A stretch of DNA of 47,240 bases from a virus, in IMG/VR virus record IMGVR_UViG_3300030329_004816, positions 1-47,240 of that record; one strand, written 5' to 3'. A model generated the notes under the pieces. The model did not search any database and had not been told where the DNA came from. It worked only from the letters and a program-made list of their open reading frames with translations. Within the stretch, counting starts at the first letter, position 1. Each line of letters begins with the position of its first letter. Shown piece after piece: positions 22,101-45,987 of the stretch. The translations under genes were made by a program, and so were the position numbers.

Positions 22101-25100
22101 ACTTTGGAATATTGCCGCTCAAGATGTGGAAAAGCCTGTAGAGGAAACTCAAAAAGCCGCAAAACCACTAAACGTTGCCTTAAAATCACAGCAGTTATCC
22201 GAGAAAAATTCTTTACAGGAATCCATAGATAAACACAAGGAAGCAGGAATTAAAATTGAGCCGTTCGTGGATTCGGATGGCAGAACCTTTAAGTTTGCCG
22301 AGACTATACTAAAGGCAGTTCAAAAACTTCCGCCGGAGACAAGAGAGGAACTCTTCCGTCTTGCAGTTGAAAATCAAGAGATTGCCAGATCTGAAAAGAA
22401 CAAACTTCCCAAAGAGGTACTTGCTGAAATTGCTAATATTAACAAGAAAAAGATCGAGCAAAGAACTCTTAATAGAGAAGACTACAAAGATCAGTGGAAT
22501 GATCATATTAAGAAGTACGTTAATCCAGAAGAAGGAATTGATTACAATAAGGATTTAGAAACGGAGATTGATAGGTTAGCTCAAGAGAATGGTGCTATTC
22601 CGCTTATGGGGCCAATCAAAGGAGATCGAGCAATCGATAAGGCTATTGATAAGGCAGAGGAGAGAATGGAACATAAACTAAAAATCAATCCAAACTTTAA
22701 CGAAGTTATCGAACCAGACTTTAACGAATTAACTGACGTTATTAGAGGATCATTAATTGCTACCACAAATGCAGAGGTTGATCAGTTAGTAGACTCCGTG
22801 TACGAAAATCCAAACTGGACGGTAATTAAAAATTCAAAAGGCCCAGAAGGAAAGGCCGATAAAAAGGATCGAAAACTTCACAAAAACAGATTTAAAAATC
22901 CTGTCGGCGGATACAAAGATCACATGATCTTAGTTGAAATGGCTCCCGGGGTAATTGCTGAGATTCAAGTTCATCGTGCTGACACTATTTATGCTAAAGA
23001 GGTCGGGCCGGGGCATTTGTTTTACGAGACAACCAGACAAATCATTGAGAGCAAAGTTCACAAAAGGAGTGCGCTAGGCTATAAAGGCACTCGAGTTACT
23101 CGCACTGCGAATAAAAAGTTTAAAGAAATCTCTAGGATATCAAAAGATTACTACACTAATTCGAGCAATATTTATGAAGATCAATTAGGAGACAAATATG
23201 ACCCTAATTTGAAAACTCAACGAGCCGCCGCATCGAGTTCAGCAGAAATGCGAAGAGCTTCCTCCTCGGTGATTTCTTCTGCACCAGAAAGTACAGTTTC
23301 GGTTATCCGAGCACGGCGGTCATCGTCTACAGGCTTAGATGCTCCAGCTATTCTAAGAAAACCCGGGCCTACCTCCCAAGGTATACCTGTTTCAGATAGA
23401 ACAAATGATGTTGTTACTTCCGGCATTACGCCTATTAATACATCAATTCCGCTAAAAGCGCAAGACTTAGATCTATTTAATGACTATGCAAAAACCCTAC
23501 CAGCTAGGACAAAAGCGTCAAAACCAGTATTTAAAAGGAAGGTGGCAAAAGATCTACCAGCCGCCTCGGGAAAGGATATTGATAATTTATTCGATTGGTT
23601 TAATGTGCCTGTAAATGAAGACGTTAGAGGAGATGCCGAAACAGGAACTCAGGGAGCACCCGATTTGGGAGAAGGTTTGGGACAATCTGAGCGAGGAGAA
23701 CCCTCGATTCCTGCTCAACAGTCTAGAGACAGTGGATCAAAGAGCGAAGATGATGATCAGAGCGACCAAGGGAGGGGTAGAGTGGACGAGCGCATCCCAA
23801 CAGATACTCCCGGAGAATCTGGAAGAGCAGAAGCCACTGACAGAGAAGGAACAGAAACAATTCCAGAAGATGAGCGACCTAGTGGAGAAGATGCTAGAAG
23901 AGAGGGACGAGAAGAGTCACCAAGAGTTCTTGAAAGGCCAGAAGTAGATTCCCCTGAAAGGAATCATACAATCGAGAGCCAAGAGGATCTAAATCCTTCG
24001 GGAGTCAAGGCTAGGATCAAAGCAAATGTTAAGGCGTTAAAACTTTTAAGAACGCTTGAAAAAGAGGACAGGAATCCAACTCCAGAGGAAAAATCTGCAT
24101 TAGCTAAGTTTTCAGGATGGGGAGCGGTTCCACAAGTCTTCGATAGAATTAAACTTCAAGAATCTCAGGATCTTGAAAGTTATCAAAGGGACTATGATAG
24201 GAATATAGAGACAGCTAATAAATCAAGTTCCTATATGAAGGATGTCTATCTTGAAGAAGCTCAGAAAGCTAAAGAAAAAATAGATAGATTAGGTAAGTGG
24301 GAAAAGAAATTCGGCAAAGAGGCAAGAGCTTTAAAAGAGCTTTTAACTGAGGATGAATGGGAGACGGCGGCGGCTTCAATCACTAATGCTCATTTTACAA
24401 GCATTGATGTAATTAAAGGAATGTGGGATGCTGTTGAAAGAATGGGTTTCAAAGGTGGGGTTGCTCTGGAACCTGCGGCTGGAGTTGGTCATTTCTTCGG
24501 AGCGATGCCTGACAAACTGTCTGACAGGACTTCAACAGTTGGAGTCGAGTTGGATTCAATATCAGGGCGTATTTTTTCTAAACTATACCCAGAAACAAAT
24601 GTATTTGTTCAAGGTTATCAAGATGCCCCAATAGAACCCGGGGCGGCTGATCTTGTTATCTCAAATGTTCCTTTTGAGAACACGTTTACTGTCGATGATA
24701 AATCATTGGGTAAAACTCCAAAGTTTAACCTTCATAATTACTTTTTCGCCAAAGCCCTTCAATCGGCGAAACCGGGAGGAATTGTTGCATTTATAACAAC
24801 TCATTTCACTATGGATGCTTCAGCAGATCAAAGAAGATGGTTGGCAAAGCATGGAGATTTAGTGGGAGCTATAAGGCTTCCCAATACGGCATTTAAGAAA
24901 AACGCAGGTACAGAGGTAACTACAGATATTATTTTCCTCAGAAAACCAGATGGTAAAAAATTCGAAGGAGAATCATGGAGCGAAGTTTCTGAGCAAAAAT
25001 TCCCTAAAGGGGGGCCAGTAAATGTAAACGAGTACTTTATTAAAAACCCTCAAATGATACTAGGCCGACTCAGTAATGATGGGTCAATGTTTGCTACTGA

Positions 25101-28100
25101 AGAAAAAGGAGAACTTACGGTTCATCCAACAGGGGATCTAGGAAGGCAACTATCTGAAGCAGTTAACAGGCTCCCATCTAATATTTTCGGAGAAGGATCT
25201 AGAACAGGAAAAATAGGAGAAGCAAAAAAAGAATCCAAGCGGAAGCAAGGGTCGATCTATTTGGATGGTAAATCAATTAAGGTGGAAGGTGTTTCTAAAG
25301 CGAAGTTACCAAAAAGGCCAGTAGTTGAATCTTTCATTCAAGTTAGAGATTCTCTTAATAATTTATTGGAAGCCGAAAAAGATCCTAATTCGACTGAGGA
25401 AAATATCACTTCAATACGAAATGATTTAAACAGGCTTTACGACTTACACGTTAAAAAGCATAAGAATTTCCACACAAGGGCATCTAAAGGTCTTTCCGTT
25501 GACCCAGATTACTATCGAGTCCTAGGACTTGAGCTTCAGCAGGAGGACGGCTCATTTAAAAAGGCATCCATCTTTAATGAAAGGGTGATGCGCCCTGTAG
25601 AAGAGCCTACAAGTGCCGACTCACAGGAAGATGCTCTTGCTCACTCACTGTCGTGGAAGGGGCTGGTAGACATCGATTACATGGCTCAACTTCTAGGGCA
25701 ACCTAAAGAAAAGATTTTAGATGAATTTGTAGGAAGCGGCCTTGGTTTTATAAATCCTGATAATGGATTGCCTGAGATCAGAAATCACTATCTCTCAGGG
25801 AACGTAAGGGAAAAGCTATTACAAGCAAAAGAAGCGGCTAAAACTTCAGAGAAGTTTGAAAGCAATGTAGAGGCATTAGAGGCAATTCAGCCAAAAGATT
25901 TAAAATACGAAGAAATATCATATTACCTTGGGTCAGCTTGGATACCCGGGGAGGTTATAGAGGATTTCGCACAAAACAGAATGAACTTAACTATGTCAGT
26001 TAATTATATGAGAACCGACACAGTTAATGAGATGGTTACTGAAAAGTGGGATGTTCAATCAACTGCTAGATGGTCACAGAGTAATGCTGAATTTGACCCA
26101 GGTGTTCCGAGATACAATGCTCAAAAAATATTAGAAAGTGTATTAAATTTAAGAACTCCAATAGTTAGAAAGAATGTAGGGACATCAGAAGACCCTCAAA
26201 TGGTTATAGATGAGAAAGCTACAGCCAACGTTAAGGCCGCCCAAGAAAGGATGAAGTTAGCTTTTAAAGACTGGATTGATGAAAATGAAGGCGCACAGAA
26301 CGCATTAACCGCTAACTATAACGAAAATTTCAATAACTATGTGGAGCCGACATATAACGGTCAACACATGGTGTTGCCTTGGATTAATCCCAAGTTTGAT
26401 TTATTCCCTGCCAAGAAAGACGTTGTATTTAGAGCTATACAAGATCGTAGAGGATTAATTGCTCATGGTGTTGGTGGAGGTAAAACAGTTATTGCTACAG
26501 CCATAGCAATGGAAATGAAAAGGCTTGGATTGGCTAACAAGCCATTGATTGCCGTACACAATGCAACTCTTGAACAATTCTCTGAAACTGTCAGAGAAAT
26601 GGCTCCAGATGCCAACATCCTAGTTGCTAGGAGATCAGATCTTGCAGGTGCAAAAAGAAAAGAGTTTTATGGGAAAATAGCATCAGGCGATTGGGATATG
26701 ATTATTATGGCTCAATCTACATTGGATCGGATACCTGATGATCCTGCTTACGAAAGAAAAATTCTTAATGAGGTAAAAGATCAGTTTATAACTTCCCTTC
26801 AACAAATTGCGATTGATGAAGGCAAGGACACACCAACTGTTAAGGAATTACAGAAAAGAATTAAGAGTATTAATGCTAAAATTGCTAAATTACAAAAAAG
26901 GAAAGTTGATGATATTTTAACTTTCCAAGAAATGGGCATCGATGCTCTTATCTTAGATGAGGCTCACTTATATAAGAAGCTCCCTTATGCTACAAAGCTA
27001 GGTAATCAAATAGCAGGTATAGATCGAGGGGCATCGCAAAGGGGAACATCTTTCTTAACCAAGTCACGGTACATTCAAGAAAACCAGAATGGTAAAAACA
27101 TATTTACCATGACAGGAACACCAGTAACTAACACTCTTGGTGAGACTTGGAATATGATAAGAATGGTTGCGCCTGATTTATTGTCTGATTTTAACGTCAG
27201 CACATTTGATTCATTTGCTACCACTTTTACCGAGATTGAAACTAGAGATGAACTGAGACCTAATGGAAGGTTCAAAAGAATACAAAGACTATCCAAAATA
27301 AGTAATATCCCGGAATGGAATAGGCTGTTTAGGCAAGTGGCTGACGTTAAACTTGGAGAAAAAATGGACGTAAAGAATCGTCCTGAGATCGAAGGTGGAG
27401 AGGCATTGCTTAAAGTGGTTCCTCAAACGGAAGGTGTTAATCAGTTTACTGAATATATCTTCAAGGTGATTGATAAATTTGATAATTTGGAAGGTAAGCA
27501 GAAAAGAGAATTTTCATACATCCCACTTGTTTCGTTTGGTGCGGCTAGAGCGGCGGCAATAGACATGAGAATGGTTGATCCTAATGCAAAGGACGAGCCG
27601 GGGAGTAAACTCAACAAAATGATCGACAGTGCAATCGATCTGTATAAAAAGCACGACAGCCAAAAAGCAACGCAGGTTGTTTTTGCAGACACATTTAGAG
27701 CAGTTAAAAGAGTAAAGCTCGAGGAGTTTCTTGAGGGTAACGTAATCGAGAGAGATATAACTGAGTCAGATGTAGAGGAAGAGGTTTCTTTTGAGGACAA
27801 TGAATTTAATCTTTATCAGGAGATTAAGAACAAACTAGCATCAAAAGGTGTACCAGAAGAGGAAATAGCAGACATCCAAGATTACAAAACTCCAGAATCT
27901 AGGCAAAAACTTTTTGATAAAGTGAATAATGGAGAAGTCCGGTTTGTTTTGGGGAGCACTCAAAAACTAGGCACAGGAGTTAATATGCAAGAGCGGATGA
28001 TTGCCGCTCATCACTTAGATGTTCCTTGGACACCTGCGGATCTCGAGCAAAGAGATGGTAGAGTTTATCGCCAAGGGAATATTTTTTCAGAGCTAAATGT

Positions 28101-31100
28101 GCCTATTCATCTGAATAGATACGGAATGCAGGAATCCCTAGATGCCGCTTTGTGGGATAAGATAGAATTTAAAGAGAGGTTTATCCGTCAAGCTATGAGC
28201 GGTGAAATGAACGCTCGTGTTATTGAGGAGGATGAAGGGCTACTTAGTCTCGCAGAACAAAAAGCTATTCTTATGGGAGCGGATGGCCTTCGCTTTTTCC
28301 AAGTCAGTCAAGAGATCGAGGCATTAGTTAGAGAGCGGAAAGCTCACGATTCATTAAGGGAAAGATCAGTTAACAATCTATCTGAATCAAAGACCAAACT
28401 TGAATTTGCTAAAGCCTTTAATGAAAAGATGACCACTGCAATGGGCAATCTTGAAAACAAGTGGGATGAAGACATGGAATTTGGCATTGAGCTAAATAAC
28501 ATTAAATATGAAGACACTAAAAAGGGAATTAAGGCTTTAGATAGGGTTTTCAAAGCTCACAACAAATCGATAAATAACAAAAGATTTAAAACACTTAGCG
28601 AGTTAAACAATGACAAAAAGCTAAGAGAGCCTCTTGCCAGTGTGACCGTTGATGGGGTCGAGGTTGAATTGAGTCACAGCGTGTTCAGAGAGAATTTAAG
28701 TGGAAAAAATCAATATCGCTCTGAGTTCATTCCGATAATTAAGATGCCTGACGGCTTAACTGTTAATTTGGAAAAAGTTACTTCAGCCGACACTTTTGAG
28801 AAAAGAATTAGAGCCGCCAAGGAAAAAATCAATATTAAGAACATTGGAGCGGAGCGAACAGTGGCTAGGGAGACTGAAAACATTCCTACATATACAGAAC
28901 TCGCAGAAAGGCCATTTCCTCGTGAAAAGGAATTACAGGACATGGTTACCGAATACAGAGAGATCGGGCCTAAGTTTGATGCTGATATGGGAATTGTCGA
29001 TTCTATAGATCCTTTAAGTGAAGAGGAGACTTCAATTCCGTTAAAATCTCAGAACCTTGATACCGATACTGCCCTCCCCTCCCATGATTTAGGAGGAAAA
29101 AAACCTTCTAGAGAAAAAATGGCTGACGCAATGATAGCGGCTAATCAAATGTTGCCTAGGGATCGTAGTCGTAAACAATTTGCTTACGAATACCGAAATG
29201 CAATGCCTAATCAAAAGTGGTTAACTGCATACGAGTTAGGGAACAGGTTATTCAGAGGAAGTGCTGAAGGAAAAGCAGCTTCTCAATCAATCCTTAATCG
29301 GTGGGTTGAGTCTGGCCTTGTGGACAGGATGTGGACTGAAGATGGTACACCTATTTATGCTTGGTCTGGAACGAAGCCGGAAAAAGGACTTTTAACCATG
29401 GATCAAATCAATAAAAAGTATCCAGAAGACGCACCACAATTTGAAAGGTTCGATGCAACTACACCTAATATTCTAAAATCTCAGAACCTTGATCCAGAGA
29501 CAGACGCTAGATACGACTTTGAGAATGTTCTTGATGAATTAACACTTCCTCCTGAGACTCTTAATATTTATTCGGGGGGTAGACTATTAGGGCGAAGAGG
29601 CGAAGATGTAGTTCGCAAGGCTCTTTTATACAAGGGCGAGAAAAGTCCACCTAAAATAAAAGAAGCAATTTTGGACGGAGGAGAGTCCTCAAATGTTTCA
29701 GAATCTATATATCCAGTGATTCTGGTTGAATTGGAAAATGGGGCAGAGTTCCGCAAAATCATTAGAATTTCAAGACATGATCAACTGTCCTCTCGTTCTC
29801 CAAGAGGATACGACTTGGATTATAGAGGCAAGAATTGGACAGAGGTTAAAAGCGATGTGCTTATAGACTTGCAAAACCTCGCTGACGATATTTGGGAAGA
29901 ACAAAAGAAAACCATTACTGGAGAAGTTGTTCCGGCAGAAGAGATAAGCCGAGAGAATGAAAAGAATAGGCAAGAGCGCATAGGCTACATTTCACGCCAA
30001 ATAGATAATCTTGAAAAGATAGGCATTCCTGCCCGAAGAAGGAAAGGCCATCTAGATAAGGTGCAGGAGTTTGAGGAAAGAGTTGCCAAGCTAAAAGAAG
30101 AACTTGTAAGCCTCGGCACTCAAACTACCAGTAATATTCTAAAATCTCAGAACCTTGCTGAAATCACAGGCGATACCGAAATCGATGTAGAACTTAAAAA
30201 GCTATACCAAGAGGCTCTTAACGAGCAATCCGGTGAACGCACTATAGGAAACCCTGAATTAGCTATAGGAGCGGAAGACCCTGCAATAATGTCTGTCGAT
30301 GAATATCGCAAGACGGCTGTAGGGGCTGAAACTTTTGAGCAGTGGAATGCTGAAGCCAAGGTAATGGTAGAAAACGATTACGAAGGAACAGCAGAAAGAA
30401 TTAAACAGCTTGGATTTGAAGGAGGGACTCTCGACCCTGTATTGACAAGAGCGGCGCAAATGATTGTTGCTCAAGAAATGTCGATGCCCATGACGAAGGA
30501 AAGAAGGGAAAATGTTCAAAAATTAGTCTGGGCATACAGGGCAACTGGAACAGAACAGGCCAGAGGACTGGCCTCGAGGAGAGACCCATTTAAAACACCT
30601 GAAGAAAGGCACAAGGAATTTCTTGGCAAGGTAATCTTCACGCCTCCGGCAAAGGTCAGGAAGAAGGTTGAAAAGGCAAGGACGCAGGAAGAGAAACAAA
30701 AGATTCTCGATAAAGATGCTATCCGGATTCAGAAGATTGAAAAAGAACTCGCAAGAATGGGAGTCACCTTTGATGACATTTTTAGAGGGGAAGTCGAGCT
30801 AACTCTTAAAGGATCGAAGATAAAAACAAATATCACAGAAGGATATTCTGCAAAACAAAAAATGGTTATCAAACTATTTAGTAGTGGTAAGACCTTAAAG
30901 CAAATTGCCAAAATGGTTGAATTGACTGTTAGCGAGGTAAAGCAGGTTCGGAATGCCTTTAAAGAGGAATTTGTACGGAGGCATTCGGATAAAGTCAGGC
31001 AAGGAGTAAAAGCAGAGGATCTGAGCGTTGACGATGAAACACTTATCCTTAAATCAAGTCCCTTGGATTTAAGCGAAGCTGAAGTTGATGCTGAAATTGA

Positions 31101-33132
31101 AAGAATGCTTCTTAAAATGGGTATCCCTCCATTAAACAAAATAGGCAAAATGAAAACTCGCAAGAGAAAGCCTAAAAAGAAAATGTTTAGACCTCCTGCT
31201 CCAAGCGGTGCTGAACAGGATGCCAAATGGGATGAGTTTAAAGACAGAGACTTTGAACCTGATTCTACTGATTATGTTCAAGAAGTCATGGTTGGAGTGG
31301 ATCTTTACGACCCTGTTGAAGTAGTTAAGATTGCGAGAGCGGCACAATCGGCTGATAGCAATGGGTGGAGTATGCTCCACGAATACTGGATCAACAATAT
31401 CCTTTCCGGCCCTCAAACGCATGTAGTTAACGTGACAGGAAATGTTGCTAATGCCGCATGGGATTTCACTGTTCAAAGAGGCATGGAGGCCATGCTTAAT
31501 ACAATTTTCAAGTCTGAAAAAGGAGCCACATTTAAAGAATATCGCCACATCATAAAAGGAATAATGCCTGGAGTGGCAAGGGGGATGAGATTAGCCCTGA
31601 AATCGTGGGGTGCTGAAACTGATTTCTTTAGAGCGGAAGTCCTTAATGAGCAGATCGATTTGAATGATGGATATATTAAAGGGGAGGGACATAAATCCTC
31701 TGTTCGTGGGAAAAAAGGAAAAGTCATCAGAATCCCCGGCAGGGCATTGTTATTTGCTGATACTTTCTTCAAAGGTCTCTTTGGAACTATGGAGGCAGGG
31801 GCGCAGGGGTACAGAATATCTAAAGCTCAAGGACTCAAAGGAAAAGAACTTGAGAAGAAAATTGCAGAATATGTAAACACTCCCAATAGTCAGGCTTGGC
31901 AGATCGCCGTTGATAAGGCTACAGATCTCACCTTCCAGACTCCTTTGAGATCAAGAGAAGAAGGAGGCAACTGGGCTGAAGCCGCAGTCCACTGGATATC
32001 AATGGGATCAAGGTCAGTTCCTCTTCTTAATTGGGTGATTCCTTTTGCAAGGACACCATTTAATATTTTTAAACAGGGAATGAGAAAGTCTCCACTTGGG
32101 ACAATTAATTTTGCATCGCACTTCCTCCGGAACGGTCTTTTCCGAAGGGAAAAAGGACAAACTGTCATCGATGCTTACCCTGAATTAATAAGAGATGCCG
32201 CAGAGCAGGTCTTGGCATGGACAGCTTACGCTGTCTTGCATGGAGCGGTTGAAGGAGATGATGATGACGATGAAAAGTTTTTCCTGATTACAGGATCAAG
32301 GCCTCCAAGATCGGGAGAAGCTGGAGTAAGGCAAAGAGATACAGGAGGAGATTATGTTATAAAAATTGGGGATCTCAAAATTCCGTATGGCCGAGTAGAG
32401 CCATTTTCAACAATCTTAGGAACAACGGCTGACTTAATTAGAGCCACGAAATCAAAAGCCACATCAGAAAGAGTTTATGGACAGTTGTGGGGATGGATGC
32501 TGGGTCAGGCCAGAAATAAAACCTTTATGCGTGGGCTAGGTGACGTTGCTAAAGCAATAGAAAAGCCGGAATCAGCTAGTTCATATACAAGTAGGTTTGT
32601 TAAAAATGCCATCGTACCAAACCTTATTCGACAGCCGATAAGGAATGTCGATAAGTATGATCGTGAATGGCGAAGCAAAGAATGGTGGTATGACATCCTG
32701 CCTTTACCATCGGGGGCTGAAAAGAAAGTTGATCCAGCAACAGGAAGATATGTTGAACGTGCTGGAACTGCGGCAACTAGACTGGTAATACCCAAAATTG
32801 AAAAGACTCAGAAGTTGGTTCAATCTGATAAATTTTTAGTTAATTGGAACCGAGAGAACCCTGCTCAAACTTGGGGGCCAACTACGCCTAGCAACAGCCT
32901 CAATATGCTCGATGGAAAAGGTCATATAAAACTGGGGCCGAACAGTTATAAATACCTCGTCAAAAGGTCAGCAACTCTTGCTCAAGGGCTGTTGGATGGT
33001 AAATTATCCCCATTCGACATTAAAGAACCTCGAGAGCGTAAACTGAACGAAATCCAGACAGCTTACAGAAAAGGGCGTGAACAGGCCAGAGATGAGCTTA
33101 GATCAAGACCAGAAATTTTGCTGAAGAAGTAA
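16144..33132 (+). CDS. Giant polyvalent protein (5662 aa), probably ejected with the DNA
   Basis: A single open frame of 16,989 nt. Order of parts by residue: 1-700 disordered and coiled coil; 840-1075 membrane-like Gly/Ala segments; about 1360-1560 degenerate metallopeptidase-like region with EEAIH (1411-1415) in place of HExxH; 1600-1995 DdrB-type ParB domain; 2150-2310 RelA/SpoT-like nucleotidyltransferase; 2340-2610 Ser-rich then acidic linkers; 2620-4060 DarB-like adenine methyltransferase plus helicase; 4060-4290 coiled coil; 4310-4430 winged-helix-like; 4451-4662 unknown domain; 4900-4945 sigma region 4-like helix-turn-helix; 5040-5662 the C-terminal domain with NNILSGPQTHVVN. LKSQNL-type linkers recur between parts. 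Polyvalent proteins of this type (P1 DarB/DdrB are known relatives) travel in the capsid and protect incoming DNA from restriction. It sits directly before the portal gene, consistent with a virion protein. No frameshift or stop interrupts it. Confidence 0.93.
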   Translation: MAQRKFGRKVENVGRPGLNPGRNNLERDEAPPATDIDPGIAQKPIISRPENIDPGIVHGARPNPMVDEIINRTRKEAIDDSAPVGQEPSIRPRIFDPRKIQHKQLKDINKDLITRLNIEDREANRRQEALQRESRTRREKASKALQEQLEEQRAEDYFQAERRLDREGIQYDKDRQGRPIVRRDKEGKPTYTKKTGDIEIDEKTGRAFRMDRDSKGNLKRVDVDKDAKVGPDATRDDGFIYRQNKYTDWEQIDPEEGRFSSDRKVAVASAKYLYEKEKERIERLIDDPVLPPKLTKSEKKKYTEERDNINKSLEDLEKSFKDGEIKEEDYNESLTSLQNQLQEAEDNLGAGAEREKLERELYDLEGRGAAAFMKPGAKKEEGDPAKEEAGELKTQIETFEKEQEEFSQGIEAEKAELDALQDKAKQGGLSAEETFELTEEIKRKIADVNSRIESGNEKLSIDAEDIRKRSKDLASRQKLAYQKAVKERDKQLDSLTNPMTSDVIDEFRKGLAEIEAREKAWAELPGDLDRLKKLGAGAKAEDHYKKQVKHQLDLDREKLAEQFQAGLEQTDALKSEAVEEIEKIQAEVSEEVASIRMPVGGSRGFDPNISQKVHEEREAISNTLPERIRKSLTEKGFKPDQIEAVVGDFEKSKDVFNGKVDSALLSDGRIQVSPRLIYNSDDELKKTISQAGGTKEQQDAAFLEARRMQDQMGAEMAETIGKTKYGKDFIEFSSKFIDDFKKQNPHFIDKDGQYTEDSEGLRPTHGTLIRAFKNARGDLWNNIAWNEFGNSLGQIMAWVPAMMGSQKYKDAGAQLKKDNEELAQLGELIDSEGFFLGFTKRELMGGGLSLVPSMLPGMAFGRVATVLGAGGKAATTAGMVGATAGAFAQSGAPTYFDAREGFQTKIYNELLKAEGVDVSEISPERISEIEKESIERADSQALWVGLATGTITAVVMGVSAKLVGPKGVEAILNRNKGGMVPVRQVVRELSKKGLKKALKSKEFYASIGKMAADFGINVSEEFAEEFSDQLFNGILEANTFNPDKSFSEILAESWKAGVMGAVLAGGMSGAGSVKNGSSEGWSQWRKSIKDKKSSLDNISDIPSTEDPVDNLAPQEQLVSAELEIDNWTPPEGANPASIDLDKRMAKAAGRIAVGDIDSVSEADLNLLNLQRNKAGEVESAKADGDPWATAENGVPILGQTLIDSLSQRHPTLAKLLPKDEASQRQSARPVEEQKQAEQPKASEPSETKTPEEQEQVGGTFEVPVYGKEEPVQVDALDEEEAGRKVAEMGVGMVDFGGIIQTGVAKTPSPKPPSPETEEIVSSAISQIEQEKGRELTAAEKAGVKKAASLVSKQIEKWGKIFKGVGWTLESIGSGGMYTKDGNLNFSVPDLLRNLASENIDSKTWAEKAGLEEAIHLVAFQLHKEGKIDIRKLWKDLPKEIQDAVRKTYPIEKKELQRLSEEINVPVGEIEAEQLGNEFLRMIVQGRMAVKDGLWELDGSVVSTEQASKTLIQSIRKAFQEILDFFNGVMDSDEEFAVEIRKAAELIEQRLNELTAKTEEKPKPKPKKVAKKKVAQKEAPTRGPPTGRVEGSTAQVINAGRTVNVRYEVRSASDSKPSHDALGRKTEGYPQELQPRDRSTKEYRQQARNIANNLDFDKAVFFPGTDTPATTADIGAPIITQEGAMGEGSPSFTLIGNGRDIGAIESYRLDTPASKDYKQKLIDNADKFGLDPEAVSKIKDPVLYRVITDNLSTPELIRFSQESNEGEAMASNAVELAGQDAQRLTPQILYALDPEFAIDSKKNQKFLTLYTQKVIGARSANEANITKSDLARRAKMAIFTAAYGLDAEGRAALDRMSGDSGDAAKRLTNALITVSPMVARMRQDIEAGALNDLDISNDIAKAVQKISSAIRDAKNISTAWESLEGQGEFDLGGKGVEDLILDYLVTNRGNRSSLENAIGNYVESVYRIGDPRQEDMFGKRAFPSREELWNIAAQDVEKPVEETQKAAKPLNVALKSQQLSEKNSLQESIDKHKEAGIKIEPFVDSDGRTFKFAETILKAVQKLPPETREELFRLAVENQEIARSEKNKLPKEVLAEIANINKKKIEQRTLNREDYKDQWNDHIKKYVNPEEGIDYNKDLETEIDRLAQENGAIPLMGPIKGDRAIDKAIDKAEERMEHKLKINPNFNEVIEPDFNELTDVIRGSLIATTNAEVDQLVDSVYENPNWTVIKNSKGPEGKADKKDRKLHKNRFKNPVGGYKDHMILVEMAPGVIAEIQVHRADTIYAKEVGPGHLFYETTRQIIESKVHKRSALGYKGTRVTRTANKKFKEISRISKDYYTNSSNIYEDQLGDKYDPNLKTQRAAASSSAEMRRASSSVISSAPESTVSVIRARRSSSTGLDAPAILRKPGPTSQGIPVSDRTNDVVTSGITPINTSIPLKAQDLDLFNDYAKTLPARTKASKPVFKRKVAKDLPAASGKDIDNLFDWFNVPVNEDVRGDAETGTQGAPDLGEGLGQSERGEPSIPAQQSRDSGSKSEDDDQSDQGRGRVDERIPTDTPGESGRAEATDREGTETIPEDERPSGEDARREGREESPRVLERPEVDSPERNHTIESQEDLNPSGVKARIKANVKALKLLRTLEKEDRNPTPEEKSALAKFSGWGAVPQVFDRIKLQESQDLESYQRDYDRNIETANKSSSYMKDVYLEEAQKAKEKIDRLGKWEKKFGKEARALKELLTEDEWETAAASITNAHFTSIDVIKGMWDAVERMGFKGGVALEPAAGVGHFFGAMPDKLSDRTSTVGVELDSISGRIFSKLYPETNVFVQGYQDAPIEPGAADLVISNVPFENTFTVDDKSLGKTPKFNLHNYFFAKALQSAKPGGIVAFITTHFTMDASADQRRWLAKHGDLVGAIRLPNTAFKKNAGTEVTTDIIFLRKPDGKKFEGESWSEVSEQKFPKGGPVNVNEYFIKNPQMILGRLSNDGSMFATEEKGELTVHPTGDLGRQLSEAVNRLPSNIFGEGSRTGKIGEAKKESKRKQGSIYLDGKSIKVEGVSKAKLPKRPVVESFIQVRDSLNNLLEAEKDPNSTEENITSIRNDLNRLYDLHVKKHKNFHTRASKGLSVDPDYYRVLGLELQQEDGSFKKASIFNERVMRPVEEPTSADSQEDALAHSLSWKGLVDIDYMAQLLGQPKEKILDEFVGSGLGFINPDNGLPEIRNHYLSGNVREKLLQAKEAAKTSEKFESNVEALEAIQPKDLKYEEISYYLGSAWIPGEVIEDFAQNRMNLTMSVNYMRTDTVNEMVTEKWDVQSTARWSQSNAEFDPGVPRYNAQKILESVLNLRTPIVRKNVGTSEDPQMVIDEKATANVKAAQERMKLAFKDWIDENEGAQNALTANYNENFNNYVEPTYNGQHMVLPWINPKFDLFPAKKDVVFRAIQDRRGLIAHGVGGGKTVIATAIAMEMKRLGLANKPLIAVHNATLEQFSETVREMAPDANILVARRSDLAGAKRKEFYGKIASGDWDMIIMAQSTLDRIPDDPAYERKILNEVKDQFITSLQQIAIDEGKDTPTVKELQKRIKSINAKIAKLQKRKVDDILTFQEMGIDALILDEAHLYKKLPYATKLGNQIAGIDRGASQRGTSFLTKSRYIQENQNGKNIFTMTGTPVTNTLGETWNMIRMVAPDLLSDFNVSTFDSFATTFTEIETRDELRPNGRFKRIQRLSKISNIPEWNRLFRQVADVKLGEKMDVKNRPEIEGGEALLKVVPQTEGVNQFTEYIFKVIDKFDNLEGKQKREFSYIPLVSFGAARAAAIDMRMVDPNAKDEPGSKLNKMIDSAIDLYKKHDSQKATQVVFADTFRAVKRVKLEEFLEGNVIERDITESDVEEEVSFEDNEFNLYQEIKNKLASKGVPEEEIADIQDYKTPESRQKLFDKVNNGEVRFVLGSTQKLGTGVNMQERMIAAHHLDVPWTPADLEQRDGRVYRQGNIFSELNVPIHLNRYGMQESLDAALWDKIEFKERFIRQAMSGEMNARVIEEDEGLLSLAEQKAILMGADGLRFFQVSQEIEALVRERKAHDSLRERSVNNLSESKTKLEFAKAFNEKMTTAMGNLENKWDEDMEFGIELNNIKYEDTKKGIKALDRVFKAHNKSINNKRFKTLSELNNDKKLREPLASVTVDGVEVELSHSVFRENLSGKNQYRSEFIPIIKMPDGLTVNLEKVTSADTFEKRIRAAKEKINIKNIGAERTVARETENIPTYTELAERPFPREKELQDMVTEYREIGPKFDADMGIVDSIDPLSEEETSIPLKSQNLDTDTALPSHDLGGKKPSREKMADAMIAANQMLPRDRSRKQFAYEYRNAMPNQKWLTAYELGNRLFRGSAEGKAASQSILNRWVESGLVDRMWTEDGTPIYAWSGTKPEKGLLTMDQINKKYPEDAPQFERFDATTPNILKSQNLDPETDARYDFENVLDELTLPPETLNIYSGGRLLGRRGEDVVRKALLYKGEKSPPKIKEAILDGGESSNVSESIYPVILVELENGAEFRKIIRISRHDQLSSRSPRGYDLDYRGKNWTEVKSDVLIDLQNLADDIWEEQKKTITGEVVPAEEISRENEKNRQERIGYISRQIDNLEKIGIPARRRKGHLDKVQEFEERVAKLKEELVSLGTQTTSNILKSQNLAEITGDTEIDVELKKLYQEALNEQSGERTIGNPELAIGAEDPAIMSVDEYRKTAVGAETFEQWNAEAKVMVENDYEGTAERIKQLGFEGGTLDPVLTRAAQMIVAQEMSMPMTKERRENVQKLVWAYRATGTEQARGLASRRDPFKTPEERHKEFLGKVIFTPPAKVRKKVEKARTQEEKQKILDKDAIRIQKIEKELARMGVTFDDIFRGEVELTLKGSKIKTNITEGYSAKQKMVIKLFSSGKTLKQIAKMVELTVSEVKQVRNAFKEEFVRRHSDKVRQGVKAEDLSVDDETLILKSSPLDLSEAEVDAEIERMLLKMGIPPLNKIGKMKTRKRKPKKKMFRPPAPSGAEQDAKWDEFKDRDFEPDSTDYVQEVMVGVDLYDPVEVVKIARAAQSADSNGWSMLHEYWINNILSGPQTHVVNVTGNVANAAWDFTVQRGMEAMLNTIFKSEKGATFKEYRHIIKGIMPGVARGMRLALKSWGAETDFFRAEVLNEQIDLNDGYIKGEGHKSSVRGKKGKVIRIPGRALLFADTFFKGLFGTMEAGAQGYRISKAQGLKGKELEKKIAEYVNTPNSQAWQIAVDKATDLTFQTPLRSREEGGNWAEAAVHWISMGSRSVPLLNWVIPFARTPFNIFKQGMRKSPLGTINFASHFLRNGLFRREKGQTVIDAYPELIRDAAEQVLAWTAYAVLHGAVEGDDDDDEKFFLITGSRPPRSGEAGVRQRDTGGDYVIKIGDLKIPYGRVEPFSTILGTTADLIRATKSKATSERVYGQLWGWMLGQARNKTFMRGLGDVAKAIEKPESASSYTSRFVKNAIVPNLIRQPIRNVDKYDREWRSKEWWYDILPLPSGAEKKVDPATGRYVERAGTAATRLVIPKIEKTQKLVQSDKFLVNWNRENPAQTWGPTTPSNSLNMLDGKGHIKLGPNSYKYLVKRSATLAQGLLDGKLSPFDIKEPRERKLNEIQTAYRKGREQARDELRSRPEILLKK
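20926..22128 (+). other. DdrB-type ParB-superfamily domain within the giant protein
   Basis: Residues about 1595-1995 carry NVRYEVRSASDSKPSHDALG, then GYPQELQPRDRS, an IGAPIIT segment and LIGNGRDIGAIESY. This is the recognisable order of the ParB-like domain of phage P1 DdrB and related polyvalent proteins (SH, YPQELQPRDR, GAPI, GNGR). A helical part follows, ending near PRQEDMFGKRAFPSREELWN. The family is predicted to be nuclease-like and is linked to protection of incoming DNA; activity here is not demonstrated. Confidence 0.82.
22591..23073 (+). other. RelA/SpoT-like nucleotidyltransferase domain within the giant protein
   Basis: Residues about 2150-2310. A helical lead-in (DKAIDKAEERMEHKL) is followed by ELTDVIRGSLIA with D2198 in the metal-binding position. 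RFKNPVGGYKDHM carries Y2257 in the GY motif, VIAEIQVH has E2273 in the EIQ motif, and KEVGPGHLFYE occupies the place of the conserved AExGHWxYK block. This is the order of the (p)ppGpp synthetase fold. The lead-in lacks a clear copy of the Arg/Lys ATP-binding helix, so the nucleotide donor is uncertain. It may make alarmones, pyrophosphorylate another target such as tRNA, or be inactive. Confidence 0.72.
24001..28323 (+). other. DarB-like adenine methyltransferase-helicase region within the giant protein
   Basis: Residues 2620-4060. The N-terminal block VKARIKANVKALKLLRTLE and KFSGWGAVPQVFD is characteristic of DarB-like proteins. The methyltransferase has EPAAGVG (2776-2782) for AdoMet binding and SNVPFEN (2840-2846) as the catalytic NPPF-type motif. 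The helicase has Walker A GVGGGKT (3442-3448), DEAH (3605-3608), TMTGTPVTNT and the motif VI block QRDGRVYRQG (3969-3978). P1 DarB protects the incoming genome from type I restriction in cis, and the same role is likely here. Confidence 0.9.
29042..30157 (+). repeat. Dispersed in-frame DNA repeat encoding LKSQNL linkers (outer limits)
   Basis: The 18-mer TAAAATCTCAGAACCTTG occurs three times in the giant gene: 29042-29059, 29474-29491 and 30140-30157. The last two copies are identical over 26 nt (29466-29491 and 30132-30157). All are in the same frame and encode LKSQNL. Related peptides without close DNA identity are ALKSQQL (residue 2013), PLKAQDL (2437) and ILKSSPL (4968). The copies bracket compact domains, including a winged-helix-like domain and an unknown domain. 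Confidence 0.9.
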
Positions 33133-40154: not shown

Positions 40155-41234
40155 ATGAAAACAAAGAAAAAGAATCCGATCAAAGGTCTTTATAAAAACA
40201 ATGGAATATATTATTACAGACCATCTACGCAAGGTCTTTCGAAGAACACAAAAAGACCCAAATCCATCAGTCTCAAAACTAAAGATTTTGATGAAGCTCT
40301 TGAAAAAGTTATCGATTTGAAAGGAGTTAATTTTCAAACTCAGGGGAGGGGAATAGGAGAGTGGTTTGAAGTTTATCTTGCCGACAGAGAAAAAGGAAAA
40401 CATTACGCACCGAGCGTCCTTCCAAATGTCAAAAACATGGTTATAAAGTTTGTTGATTTTGTCGGCCCAAATACGACTCCGGAAAGCATTGGAAAAGGGA
40501 AGGCTATGGACTGGTACAACGAACTGAATGATGGCTCTCGTCAGCCTGTTTCTGTTAAAGGTTATATCCGGTACGCCAGAGCGTTCTTTACTTGGCTTGT
40601 TGATAAGGAAGTCATCAAGGTTAATCCATTTGCGAAGATGAAACTTCCTACTGATGCAGAAACCAGAATAACTGATTTCTGGACGGCAAAGGAAAGAGAT
40701 AAAATTCTTGAAGTGGCAAGTAACTCGAAAATACAAAGAAGAGAAGAAATGTTCTTCGTTTTGATGATGGGATTCTATGCAGGAATGCGAATCAAGGAAA
40801 TTCTCAATATCAAGTGGGGATGGTTCAACATTAAAGGTGACAAAGGCTCGATAACGATTCAAAATGAAGTTGAAGGGTTTAAAACCAAAAGCAGAAAGAA
40901 AAGAACTGTTCCTATGCCTTCTGCTCTTACTAAATTCGTTAAAAGCCTGGATTGGGGTGAAGATGAAGAATACGTCCTTTTTCCTGAAAAGGGTGCTCAA
41001 CTGCATCGGGCTAGAGGTCATAGATGGGACGCAAGAGGTTCTCTCGAAAGAGTTCTCAATGAAGCTAAGACTAAAGGAGGGTTTCATAAAATGAGACACA
41101 GCTACGCACATCTAAGGATTAATGCTAATACACCAGAAACGAAAATCATCACTTGGATGGGCATCACTCCCGAAGTCTACAGAAAGCACTATGCAGGTAT
41201 TTCAGAATTTGATGACGATGCGGATCTTATATAG
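40155..41234 (+). CDS. int: Tyrosine-type site-specific integrase
   Basis: 359 aa. An N-terminal arm-binding-like region (GLYKNNGIYYYRPSTQGLSK) and a SAM-like core-binding domain (VKGYIRYARAFFTWLVDKE) precede the catalytic domain. Catalytic residues visible are R212 (FYAGMRIKEIL), H311 and R314 (HKMRHSYAHL), W334 and the nucleophile Y346 (YRKHYAG). It would catalyse recombination between attP just upstream and a host tRNA gene, and prophage excision with a directionality factor not identified here. The gene runs against the surrounding leftward series. Its 3' end overlaps the convergent gene at 41189 by 46 nt. Confidence 0.93.
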   Translation: MKTKKKNPIKGLYKNNGIYYYRPSTQGLSKNTKRPKSISLKTKDFDEALEKVIDLKGVNFQTQGRGIGEWFEVYLADREKGKHYAPSVLPNVKNMVIKFVDFVGPNTTPESIGKGKAMDWYNELNDGSRQPVSVKGYIRYARAFFTWLVDKEVIKVNPFAKMKLPTDAETRITDFWTAKERDKILEVASNSKIQRREEMFFVLMMGFYAGMRIKEILNIKWGWFNIKGDKGSITIQNEVEGFKTKSRKKRTVPMPSALTKFVKSLDWGEDEEYVLFPEKGAQLHRARGHRWDARGSLERVLNEAKTKGGFHKMRHSYAHLRINANTPETKIITWMGITPEVYRKHYAGISEFDDDADLI

Positions 41235-42169: not shown

Positions 42170-42697
42170 TCAAAAAGGGGAAGAGGTTGTTGAAACAGGC
42201 GGTGAGGCCGGAGTCAGTGTTGCTTGAGGAGAGGAATCTCCCCCTAAAGCGTCTGCGGCGATAGCCTTTGCCTTACTGCCGATGTTTCCAATAATGTTAG
42301 CTACGGTTGTTTCTTCAAGCGCAGGAGCACCGCTTGAGATTGGATTGATATATTTGATTCGCAATCTCTTCTCTCCTTCCCATTCCTCGAACTCAGCAAC
42401 CACTTGGCACTCGATACCTGAAAAGTTAGTTGTCCCTTTCTGGAGAGCTTCCAAATCTCCATTAAAGCCAAAAGCCTTTGCCAATGCCCTAATGGTAAAT
42501 TCAACCGATGCGTCTGTAAGGTATCCAAACCAGACAGCTTTCTTCCCTTCGTGGGGGCCAGAGCTTACCTGTAATGGAATCCGGATGGCTGGTGTTTCTT
42601 TTGCTCCTCTAGTAGTTAGCCAACCACTTTGAGGCTCTGTCACTACTGCCGGAAATTTTCCGGCAATGTCTAGGTATTCATGTTCTTCTTCACTCAT
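42170..42697 (-). CDS. Putative single-stranded DNA-binding protein
   Basis: 175 aa. A beta-rich N-terminal region about 120 residues long (PAIRIPLQVSSGPHEGKKAV, then ECQVVAEFEEWEGEKRLRIKYI) resembles an OB-type or DUF669-like fold. It is followed by a flexible Ala/Ser/Thr/Pro tail ending SSPF, like the C-terminal tip of SSB proteins although not acidic. Directly upstream is the Sak4-like recombinase; phage Sak4 ATPases are usually encoded beside an SSB that stimulates them. The call is by fold pattern and context. Confidence 0.6.
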   Translation of the reverse strand: MSEEEHEYLDIAGKFPAVVTEPQSGWLTTRGAKETPAIRIPLQVSSGPHEGKKAVWFGYLTDASVEFTIRALAKAFGFNGDLEALQKGTTNFSGIECQVVAEFEEWEGEKRLRIKYINPISSGAPALEETTVANIIGNIGSKAKAIAADALGGDSSPQATLTPASPPVSTTSSPF

Positions 42698-42702
42698 AAT
42701 TT

Positions 42703-43614
42703 TTATTCGCCGTCAGCGATCTCCTGTAATATTGATATTGCGGTTCTAAGACGATCTTCTGATACGCCTTCCAAATCTTTAAGTCTCTCGTCCCATGCCT
42801 TGGCATCCTCTTCGGACATTGATGGTCTCACTAGAGGATAAATAGTTTGAATCCTTTCAACGAGATCCTCTGGTTTGCTTGAGCTTTCAGCCGCTTCGAA
42901 ACTGTCCCATGACAATGGGAGCTTGGCTGGAAGGGATTTTCTGTTCTTAGCGTCAAATCCCGGATGCCAAGTAGTGTATATAACACGCTCTCCACCTGCG
43001 GCCTTTTCTCCAGATCCATCCTGCCTCTTGATTTTATGAACATCTCTAGTGGCAAATAGAACGCAATCAGCCCACTCACGGATTACCCCGGCGAATTTCT
43101 TATTGCCTTTTGCTTCCCATCGATCCCAAGCTTCACCTGCTGGATCAGTAAACGGCTTAATGTGAACATGACCTAGAATGATAATTCTAGTATCGTGTTT
43201 TTGTCTTAACTGATCGAGTTGGCGAAGGAACACAACAAGCTCACTTGTCGCTCTGTCATGTCCCTTGCCATACCCACCATAAGCCTTGTTTATATCGTCC
43301 GTACCTGCGTCAGCGCACACCCACTCATAAACCATCCTTTCCATCCAGTCCGATGTATCAACTACTAGTGATTTATAGTCGATTTTGTCCTGACTCAGCA
43401 GTTCCCCAACGACCCCTGTAATTTCTTCCCATGAATCAGGGCTGAACCTCTCTATTTTCCCAAATTCTGAAAGACCATCCTCAGAGGTAATAAATAATGG
43501 TCTAGGTGCGTTTGCCCCAAAGGTAGTTTTGCCTATCCCCTCAACGCCAAGAAGGAAGACTCTTGAAGGCAATTCCTTGCCTCCAATTCCGATTTTTTTC
43601 AGTAGTTTACTCAT
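42703..43614 (-). CDS. Sak4-like RecA-family ATPase (recombination)
   Basis: 303 aa. Walker A GVEGIGKTT is at 23-31 (RVFLLGVEGIGKTTF). A Walker B-like strand follows in YKSLVVDTSDWMERMV, and a further strand TRIIILGHVHIKPF. The first half is the compact RecA-type ATPase of phage Sak4/AAA_24 proteins, which promote single-strand annealing with an SSB partner. The C-terminal 50 residues are helical and acidic. Neighbours (SSB-like, methyltransferase, PD-(D/E)XK nuclease) make a recombination/repair cassette. The stop of the upstream methyltransferase overlaps its start by 4 nt. Confidence 0.82.
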   Translation of the reverse strand: MSKLLKKIGIGGKELPSRVFLLGVEGIGKTTFGANAPRPLFITSEDGLSEFGKIERFSPDSWEEITGVVGELLSQDKIDYKSLVVDTSDWMERMVYEWVCADAGTDDINKAYGGYGKGHDRATSELVVFLRQLDQLRQKHDTRIIILGHVHIKPFTDPAGEAWDRWEAKGNKKFAGVIREWADCVLFATRDVHKIKRQDGSGEKAAGGERVIYTTWHPGFDAKNRKSLPAKLPLSWDSFEAAESSSKPEDLVERIQTIYPLVRPSMSEEDAKAWDERLKDLEGVSEDRLRTAISILQEIADGE

Positions 43615-44612
43615 AATGTTAAATACGGTTGGGCAGAAGATATTCTTCTATCTGCTATTTTTTTATATTCAGGATTTAGTTCTATTCCTAAAAAGTTTCG
43701 GCCATTCTCGACTGCTACCAGCCCTGTAGTCCCTGCACCGGAAAAGGGATCAATCACGTTGTCTCCACGAGACGAACCTGCTAAAATGCATGGTGTTATA
43801 AGTTTTTTGGGGAACGTGGCAAAATGCGCTCCCTTAAAGGGCCGAATAGCAACATTCCAAACCGAACGTTTATTCCTTGCGCTGTCTTCTTCTTCACTAA
43901 GAGCAGGTTCCTTAATGGCGTTGTGGTCATATTTATAATTAGGAGATTTGCTTAATAAAAATATGTATTCATGTGCTTTAGTGCATCTATCCGTCACGCT
44001 CTCTGGCATGGGGTTGGGTTTGTTCCAGATTATATCCTGCCTCAAATACCAGCCATCCTTCTGAAGAGCAAAAGCGACACGCCAAGGAATGCCGACAAGG
44101 TCTTTTGATTTTAACCCTTCAACCTTATTATTGATAGCGTGGGCCTGTGCGTTTCTGCCTTCTTTGTACTTAGGATCTTTGTGATCTCCCTTGTGGCTTG
44201 TTCCGCAGTAAGAATCACCCAAATTAAGCCAAAGCGTTCCATCGTCCTTTAAGACCCTCTTAATGGCTCTGAATACATCCACCATACTGACAACATATTT
44301 TTCCGGTGAGGATTCCAGCCCCAGTTGATCATCTTCGCGAATTGCTCCACACCTAGGGCATTCTTCTTTATAGATTGCATCGCCTACGCCATTCATCTGA
44401 TCGAAGTTTTTATGACCAGTTATTGTTTTATCGGACTTCTTTGATTCTCTCCGGTGACTGCAATTAGAATCACCTCCAACCCAAGTGGCTGTACCGTAGT
44501 CTCGAAGCCCCCAGTAGGGAGGAGAGGTTATGCACGTTTGGAAAGAGCATTCATCTAGCTCTTTCAAAATTTGCCGACAATCGCCCTCAAGAATTGTAGA
44601 TTCAGCGTTCAT
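43611..44612 (-). CDS. DNA methyltransferase, beta-type order (N4-cytosine or N6-adenine)
   Basis: 333 aa. The catalytic motif SPPY (30-33, TCITSPPYWGLRDYG) comes before the AdoMet-binding motif DPFSGAGT (288-295), the motif order of beta-class amino-methyltransferases. An insertion at about 50-95 holds Cys/His pairs (CSH, then CPRCG) that may bind zinc. No restriction endonuclease gene is adjacent, so it is an orphan enzyme that probably protects phage DNA or marks it for replication control. It follows the nuclease gene by 1 nt and overlaps the Sak4-like gene by 4 nt. Confidence 0.9.
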   Translation of the reverse strand: MNAESTILEGDCRQILKELDECSFQTCITSPPYWGLRDYGTATWVGGDSNCSHRRESKKSDKTITGHKNFDQMNGVGDAIYKEECPRCGAIREDDQLGLESSPEKYVVSMVDVFRAIKRVLKDDGTLWLNLGDSYCGTSHKGDHKDPKYKEGRNAQAHAINNKVEGLKSKDLVGIPWRVAFALQKDGWYLRQDIIWNKPNPMPESVTDRCTKAHEYIFLLSKSPNYKYDHNAIKEPALSEEEDSARNKRSVWNVAIRPFKGAHFATFPKKLITPCILAGSSRGDNVIDPFSGAGTTGLVAVENGRNFLGIELNPEYKKIADRRISSAQPYLTL

Positions 44613-44613
44613 T

Positions 44614-45651
44614 TTAGTTGTTCGGCATATATGCCGCTAAATAATCCTCTAATTGGTCGTGCCAGTATGAGCCGAACCACAATGCCTCAGAATATTCCTT
44701 AACAGGCTCGATGGGTTTTTCATACCGATGGTAATGGTATCTATTGCATTTTCTTAATGCTCGAAGTCTACTATTAGTTAACAGTTCCTTTTCCGACACA
44801 CCGGGAGCAGAAGAAAGCTCCGGATGGGCAGAAGTGCGTTCACGGTATCGAACCCCATCAACTGATGATTGCCCGACACAAAGCTCGAGAAATTCGCATG
44901 AACCATAGTGCAAACAGCTTTCCGGGTTTTTAGGCCACAAATTCTTCTCTCTCCAATAAAGGATTTGCTCCGCACTTGCCCAAGCATCCTTCATATACTC
45001 CTGCAAGGTCTCATTGGTCTGAGCTATCTTCTGAATCTCGACAAAGGATTTCTCTGAATTTTCGATGTTCTCACGGCATCGCTCTTCGTACTCATCCGGC
45101 GTTTCATCTCTTACCTCTAAATATTGATCAGTGCCAGATGTAACAGATTGTTTGGGCGAACCATTTTTATTAAGAACCCTGCTTCCTGAACCATCTAAAA
45201 CAATTTTTTTGCCATCCTCATCAAGAACAGGTCTTGTCCCAAAACGTATTGTTGGCTTTTTAACCACATCATAAATCACTCCCATCACTTCCCGATCCGG
45301 AAATTCGTGAATTAAAGATAAAAGATATTTAGATATTTGAGTATCAATAGATAAACGTTTCCAGTAGTTAGAACCTGGGGAAATATCCTCTGATGATGTT
45401 TTGTGTTCCAAAAGCCAGATGTTTCCATCCTTATCCTCTAATACTCCATCTCTCTTTCCTGACTCAACAAAGGTTTCTGATTCCTTTCCGTCATCGGGAT
45501 TTACTAAAGGGAAAACAAATTCACCCTCCACCTCGATAGGCATAAATCCTTGATCTAAAACTTCAGCCCCAAAAGTTTCACGCCAAGGATTAAATAGGGC
45601 ATGAGCTTTGGCTTTGAGACCCTCAGAAATTCTATCGTCTATCGCTTCCAT
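44614..45651 (-). CDS. PD-(D/E)XK nuclease with permuted Fe-S-type motifs
   Basis: 345 aa. The nuclease core is near the N-terminus: D68 (ESGKRDGVL) and E82-x-K84 (WLLEHKTSS). Three cysteines follow in CLHYGSCEFLELC (246, 252, 258). The last 55 residues (LTNSRLRALRKCNRYHYHRY, then EALWFGSYWHDQLEDYL) match what is normally the N-terminal block of RecB/Cas4-like nucleases, including the fourth cluster Cys (C302) and His (H331). The order of motifs is thus circularly permuted, with no missing key residue. RecB/Cas4-like phage nucleases process DNA ends in recombination, which suits the neighbouring Sak4-like ATPase. No N-terminal extension is possible: the frame closes at a TGA without another ATG. 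Confidence 0.85.
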   Translation of the reverse strand: MEAIDDRISEGLKAKAHALFNPWRETFGAEVLDQGFMPIEVEGEFVFPLVNPDDGKESETFVESGKRDGVLEDKDGNIWLLEHKTSSEDISPGSNYWKRLSIDTQISKYLLSLIHEFPDREVMGVIYDVVKKPTIRFGTRPVLDEDGKKIVLDGSGSRVLNKNGSPKQSVTSGTDQYLEVRDETPDEYEERCRENIENSEKSFVEIQKIAQTNETLQEYMKDAWASAEQILYWREKNLWPKNPESCLHYGSCEFLELCVGQSSVDGVRYRERTSAHPELSSAPGVSEKELLTNSRLRALRKCNRYHYHRYEKPIEPVKEYSEALWFGSYWHDQLEDYLAAYMPNN

Positions 45652-45770
45652 TCGCTCAAAAATTTTGCAATTCGTAAATAATTTCTTGCTCTTTTTTCTT
45701 TTTTGATCGATTTGACTTCAGCCCTATTTGAAAGCCATCCAAAAATTTTAATTAGAAAGGATTTAATCAT
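45639..45770 (-). CDS. Possible 43-aa basic peptide gene
   Basis: An ORF from ATG at 45770 to TAG at 45639 encodes a basic peptide beginning MIKSFLIKIFGWLSNRAEVK and ending LSEWKR. It fills the only gap between the RHH-type gene and the nuclease gene, overlapping them by 8 and 13 nt, which matches the tight packing of this operon. There is no clear ribosome-binding site, so it may instead be a leader for the nuclease gene. Confidence 0.4.
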   Translation of the reverse strand: MIKSFLIKIFGWLSNRAEVKSIKKEKRARNYLRIAKFLSEWKR

Positions 45771-45987
45771 TGATTTCAATAGTTGTGGTTTCGCTTTTGC
45801 GGATCACTAGCTTTCCTTCATCCATTCTATCGAGTGATGCTTTAGTTAGCACTCTGACAACTTCGGATAAATTTCCGTTCGTGTATAAATTAGCTTTTTC
45901 CTCTAAAACCTTGAGAAGCGATTCAGTAAATGCAATCGACCTTGTTCCGTGCCTATTTACCCTTGAATTTGAAATCTCCATTTTCAT
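45763..45987 (-). CDS. Small putative ribbon-helix-helix regulator
   Basis: 74 aa. A basic N-terminus with a strand-like RHGTRSIAFTES is followed by two helices (LLKVLEEKANLY and LSEVVRVLTKASLDRM), the pattern of a ribbon-helix-helix DNA-binding protein, and a short C-terminal strand. It is the first gene of the long leftward series and diverges from the XRE-type regulator across 285 bp, a position like that of Cro- or Arc-type switch proteins. Confidence 0.6.
   Translation of the reverse strand: MKMEISNSRVNRHGTRSIAFTESLLKVLEEKANLYTNGNLSEVVRVLTKASLDRMDEGKLVIRKSETTTIEIND

Follow-up and report, generated by a model that had tools for sequence, protein, structure and literature searches.

A very likely natural circular permutation in a RecB/Cas4/AddB-type exonuclease of a phage Sak4 recombination module

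We propose that the gene at positions 44614..45651 (minus strand) of a 47,240-base metagenomic virus record from IMG/VR, which was analysed over its whole length and is hereafter called the window, very likely encodes a naturally circularly permuted exonuclease of the RecB/Cas4/AddB type that belongs to a Sak4 recombination module. The open reading frame, whose strand had been left out of the preliminary description of this DNA, begins with ATG, and its 345-residue translation (P0001) is recognized as a PD-(D/E)XK/4-Cys exonuclease by phrog_1218 and Pfam PDDEXK_1. In AddB/Cas4-type nucleases a four-cysteine Fe-S cluster ties together both ends of the chain, with one ligand supplied by the N-terminal block and three by the C-terminal end. 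The residues previously named for the window protein all lie exactly where they had been placed: the active-site aspartate D68 (codon at 45448..45450, minus strand), the E82-x-K84 motif (45400..45408, minus), C246, C252 and C258 (44878..44916, minus), which are three of the four presumed Fe-S ligands, and C302 and H331; a QxxxY motif (Q105, Y109) is also present. The protein thus has the four cysteines of the RecB/AddB/Cas4-type Fe-S nucleases, C302 in the GxxxH block and the other three after the core, but not their canonical block-first chain order. Its equivalent of the canonical N-terminal block, residues 290-345 (LLTNSRLRALRKC302..FGxxxH331; 44617..44784, minus), recognized by its phrog_1218 match and by predicted secondary structure, is C-terminal, and the protein is therefore classed as a permuted variant.

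The displacement of this block is directly visible in profile matches. The window protein matches PDDEXK_1 (PF12705) with an E-value of 5e-8 and 33.6 bits, above the curated cut-off of 22, and the phrog_1218 exonuclease with an E-value of 5.9e-29 over nearly the whole profile, in two stretches: residues 11-260 correspond to profile positions 95-331, while the C-terminal 56 residues alone correspond to positions 9-56 (E-value 6.8e-10). Upon rotation in silico, with residues 290-345 put first, a single stretch results, in which residues 1-316 correspond to profile positions 9-331. Rotation raises the Pfam score of the window protein from 33.6 to 37.8 bits, and that of its counterpart from the Tunturiibacter phage Tunturi_2 from 49.3 to 59.7 bits; the phrog_1218 total of the window protein is not raised (99.5 bits in one stretch versus 102.4 in two). 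Weak matches to cytochrome f, obtained with phmmer against PDB sequences at E-values of about 0.001, were taken as chance, and a plasmid collection searched with the nuclease yielded no match.

Scanning IMG/VR, genome contigs and annotated phages with profiles recovered 58 distinct block-last proteins, derived from IMG/VR, two cultured phages, a Planctomycetaceae MAG and a deltaproteobacterial MAG, as against 16 close block-first proteins. Across the core, these canonical relatives share about 40% identity with the window protein and about 50% with other permuted proteins. Single-sequence scans with the Tunturi_2 protein or with that of locus L152 (see below) gave no further relatives. When permuted and canonical proteins were compared by blastp, 656 of the 661 pairs with two or more alignments showed these in crossed order; hence, two homologous segments are swapped relative to close homologues. 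The circular permutation put forward in the preliminary description is accordingly borne out by the N-terminal position of the block in canonical homologues, by the crossed alignments and by the nesting of the permuted set among canonical proteins, and the alignment with unpermuted homologues that it had called for establishes that the block-last order is not the ordinary one. The exonucleases of the phages Tunturi_1 and Tunturi_2, 27-29% identical to the window protein, share its permuted order and are likewise followed downstream by Sak4 and SSB genes; their annotation reads only "exonuclease", and the paper describing these phages says nothing of it (PMC11924767). Conversely, canonical copies from IMG/VR (L083, L085, L086, L087 and L122) and from Planctomycetota and Myxococcota-group genomes have the same Sak4-SSB neighborhood as the permuted loci, but their block is N-terminal, unlike that of the window protein.

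In view of the metagenomic origin of the window, its block-last order might be conceived of as an artefact of assembly or as a fusion of neighboring gene fragments. We consider the chance of this to be negligible, given that the same order recurs in many independent contigs, that the block is under purifying selection and that the surrounding gene order is unchanged; moreover, its occurrence in the isolates Tunturi_1 and Tunturi_2 means that it is not a product of assembly, which disposes of the rearrangement that the preliminary description had named as fatal to its claim. It is also highly improbable that the C-terminal block is an independently gained small domain, for instance a DNA- or partner-binding module, in a protein that lost its original N-terminal block: the block retains the cluster cysteine and the GxxxH histidine with the spacing of the nuclease family in 58/58 permuted proteins, and it most resembles the N-terminal block of that same family.

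The permuted proteins bear the marks of retained function. D68, K84, Q105, Y109, the four cysteines, G327 and H331 are invariant across all 58 permuted and all 16 canonical proteins, with position 82 being occupied by E or D. For permuted pairs with unsaturated dS, the dN/dS of the block ranges from 0 to 0.16 (in the pair formed by the window and its closest relative, L001, synonymous sites are saturated), and by this measure purifying selection acts on the moved block. The invariance of the catalytic and cluster residues and the low dN/dS together uphold the earlier view of a functional permutation rather than debris. AlphaFold models were obtained from 15 sequences for the window protein (pLDDT 88.6, pTM 0.82) and from 13 for the canonical L083 protein (pLDDT 88.9, pTM 0.85). 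The latter begins with a helix-helix-strand-helix unit (residues 10-18, 20-28, 31-33 and 38-57), and the former closes with the same unit (293-301, 303-311, 314-316 and 322-339). Against the solved structure of AdnA, the canonical model aligns with residues 789-1039 (Z 16.2, 227 residues aligned) and the permuted model only with residues 857-1039 (Z 9.1, 172 residues aligned), a difference that would follow if the portion of AdnA preceding residue 857 is the counterpart of the moved block, because a sequential aligner cannot use the latter. The match to ACE1 has a Z of 8.0 for the permuted and 15.3 for the canonical model. The model of the viral protein A0A6J5NSY1 matches the permuted model from one end to the other (TM 0.69/0.70), and this protein is probably another permuted member. 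With a linker of about 30 residues, the block could conceivably reach a neighboring chain, such that the protein would form a domain-swapped dimer, each core being completed by its partner's C-terminal block; however, the monomer is predicted with confidence (pTM 0.82), and we regard such a swap as unlikely. The Fe-S cluster would make the tolerance of the permutation intelligible: it would hold the old ends close together, a short linker would suffice to join them, and the active site would stay where it was.

The junction between the old ends is readable in the sequences. Canonical proteins end 25-48 residues past the last cysteine, in most cases a few residues beyond an (H/N)xEL motif, and start a few residues ahead of LLTNSR; in permuted proteins 27-38 residues separate the last cysteine from LLTNSR, and the (H/N)xEL motif is found within this linker too. 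In the window protein the linker comprises residues 259-289 (..SAHPELSSAPGVSEKE; 44785..44877, minus), equivalent to the canonical C-terminal tail, after which the canonical N-terminus follows directly. In the window's type of permutation (type I), the new ends are located in the segment that separates the GxxxH helix from the core helix following it. Thus, the old ends have been joined and the new ends fall between structural elements, as in a circular permutation. A linker composed of the old C-terminal tail plus the old N-terminal start is what would be expected from an in-frame head-to-tail duplication whose outer parts were trimmed. Under this scheme, an ancestral chain in the order block, first core part (D), second core part (ExK) and three cysteines would have been duplicated head-to-tail and read through in frame, with the first block and the second core being lost subsequently, leaving the old C-terminus joined to the old N-terminus. 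Such an origin by tandem duplication and trimming had been suggested before, together with a search for relatives carrying tandem copies. The junction, at which a canonical C-terminal end runs into a canonical N-terminal start, favors it, but two complete copies did not come to light in any relative, and none of the ORFs of the collected relatives had a block at each end. Because of the latter result, the argument for duplication is drawn from the junction. The order nuclease-Sak4-SSB is common to the permuted and canonical sets and therefore fits a change in place. The L152 gene was entertained as a tandem copy and set aside: its ORF begins at the ExK strand after a ribosome-binding-like sequence and, taken together with L160, it is better accommodated by a second permutation.

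Phylogenetic analysis bears on both the direction and the number of these events. In an unrooted tree of the core alone, a single branch parts the permuted from the canonical rows (93/85; 96% of bootstraps). With canonical outgroups as the root, a tree of full-length sequences rotated into a common order unites the permuted rows in a single clade (100/92; 99% of bootstraps), which is nested within the canonical rows and adjoins L086, L087 and L118; on account of this nesting we take the block-first order to be ancestral. Unrooted counts of change are blind to direction, and on those the block-last order could equally be read as the ancestral, ordinary one, with the canonical relatives being the rearranged proteins. 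That polarity is nevertheless extremely improbable: the outgroups L037/L041 and L130/L133 are block-first, as is the wider family represented by phrog_1218, the Pfam profile and the AdnA, AddB, Cas4 and RecB folds, and the permuted clade lies inside the canonical rows. With the block-first order as the starting point, the window's type of permutation most likely arose once, long ago in its lineage. A very divergent block-last nuclease from a Planctomycetota genome was also observed (L124:1480-2706, minus; G106). When it is added to the tree, support for a single origin falls, and one clade that includes it is neither rejected (p-AU 0.44) nor demonstrated; this protein may have acquired the window's type of permutation independently.

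Beyond type I, in which the new ends precede the first core helix, we identified a second arrangement (type II), in which the chain starts at the ExK strand. L160 (contig G858:C781, from a genome of the same class as G617) contains a closed ORF of 378 codons for amino acids (L160:34-1170), bounded by an in-frame TAG at 4-6, a GTG at 34 and a TGA at 1168-1170. The protein starts with VYLTPGAVYVVEHKTSS, immediately ahead of the ExK strand, and finishes with GGKIDALVRIQGAA, immediately past the active-site D; in between, the cysteine cluster, a linker and the block follow one another, with the same junction of C-terminal end to N-terminal start as in type I, and Sak4- and SSB-like genes lie downstream of the ORF. 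The L152 frame (L152:1-825, minus; G617:C455) begins MAFIIEHKTTS at the ExK strand, following the ribosome-binding-like AAAGGGGG; it has a 10-N gap and runs off the contig at the D motif. It probably belongs with L160 in the second permutation. L160 is sister to the canonical L145 (99/97) and type II is placed apart from type I in the tree, though the rejection of a tree that constrains the two types to group is weak (p-AU 0.03). Both contigs end near a new terminus, which enjoins caution on type II. On balance, with type I and with L160 and L152 starting at the same point, circular permutation seems likely to be recurrent in this nuclease family; if so, an Fe-S cluster tying both ends would make the starting point of the chain immaterial to the fold. 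A further candidate for type II, L172, proved to be canonical. Adjoining that canonical nuclease is a 243-residue frame with many near-repeats of GTATAGDRGTATAG (L172:1984-2715, plus).

The gene neighborhood links the nuclease to recombination. The window carries, in series on the minus strand, the nuclease gene, a gene for a Sak4-like ssDNA annealing protein (42703..43614; phrog_124, E-value 7.2e-39) and a gene for a putative single-strand-binding protein (42170..42697), the composition of a phage Sak4 recombination module. The last of these has no match in Pfam or PHROG when considered alone, and its identification follows from its position after Sak4, which is that of the Tunturi_2 gene annotated as SSB. 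A DNA N6/N4 methyltransferase gene (43611..44612, minus; PF01555, E-value 8.8e-52) is interposed between the nuclease and Sak4 genes, and is absent from that spot in L001. Apart from this intervening gene in the window, Sak4 is the next gene downstream in every permuted locus, as it is in 15 of the 16 canonical loci, the sixteenth of which runs off its contig. In phage HK620, Sak4 acts as an annealing protein, and the phage's SSB stimulates it (PMC5928155). With its activity, polarity and cluster taken from its family, we infer the window nuclease to be the end-resecting partner of Sak4: it would resect the ends of double-stranded DNA, baring 3' single strands for Sak4 and SSB, much as lambda exonuclease does for Red beta. 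Upstream of the nuclease a small frame MIKSFLIKIFGWLSN.. (45640-45775, minus) terminates just within the nuclease start, and the overlap ATGgaagcgaTAG suggests translational coupling of the two. Also upstream is a gene for a 74-residue protein (45763-45987, minus) that is CopG/RHH-like by eye, finds no match in a PHROG search and has a relative at the same place in L001. Elsewhere in the window, a tyrosine-type integrase gene (phrog_1; 40155-41234, plus) inside the minus-strand replication/recombination cluster suggests a temperate phage. A single ORF of 5662 residues (16144-33132, plus), occupying over a third of the record and combining ddrB-like ParB, SNF2/ResIII helicase and weak Eco57I-methylase matches, has the appearance of a polyvalent phage protein of giant size.

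It is uncommon for a natural circular permutant to have close unpermuted relatives, a junction that can still be read and a gene neighborhood that has not changed. The permuted and canonical sets described here open up the questions of how permutation happens, including duplication, trimming and their frequency, why the fold accepts it and whether the moved ends alter activity. Automatic annotation reports just an exonuclease in such cases, and profile tools break the permuted proteins into two partial matches. We found no description of circular permutation in PD-(D/E)XK, RecB or Cas4 nucleases in the open literature; the main superfamily surveys appeared in subscription journals, which lay outside this scope, and an earlier mention is possible. 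What is new here is the circularly permuted RecB/Cas4-like exonuclease, the type of phage recombination module being already known. With the RecB/Cas4-like, four-cysteine families phrog_1218 and PDDEXK_1 the window protein has in common the GxxxH, D, (E/D)xK and QxxxY motifs and all four cysteines, but it is rotated relative to them, with the block last rather than first. The closest solved folds to both the window and the canonical models are the nuclease domains of AdnA/AddB and ACE1, an Argonaute-associated Cas4-like protein; these are in canonical order and are either helicase-fused or Argonaute-associated, whereas the window nuclease is encoded by a stand-alone phage gene. In its adjacency of a nuclease gene to a gene for a single-strand annealing protein, the window module is comparable to the lambda exonuclease-Red beta pair. 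Lambda exonuclease, however, belongs to another branch of the superfamily, which is devoid of the four cysteines, and its annealase is Rad52-like rather than a Sak4.
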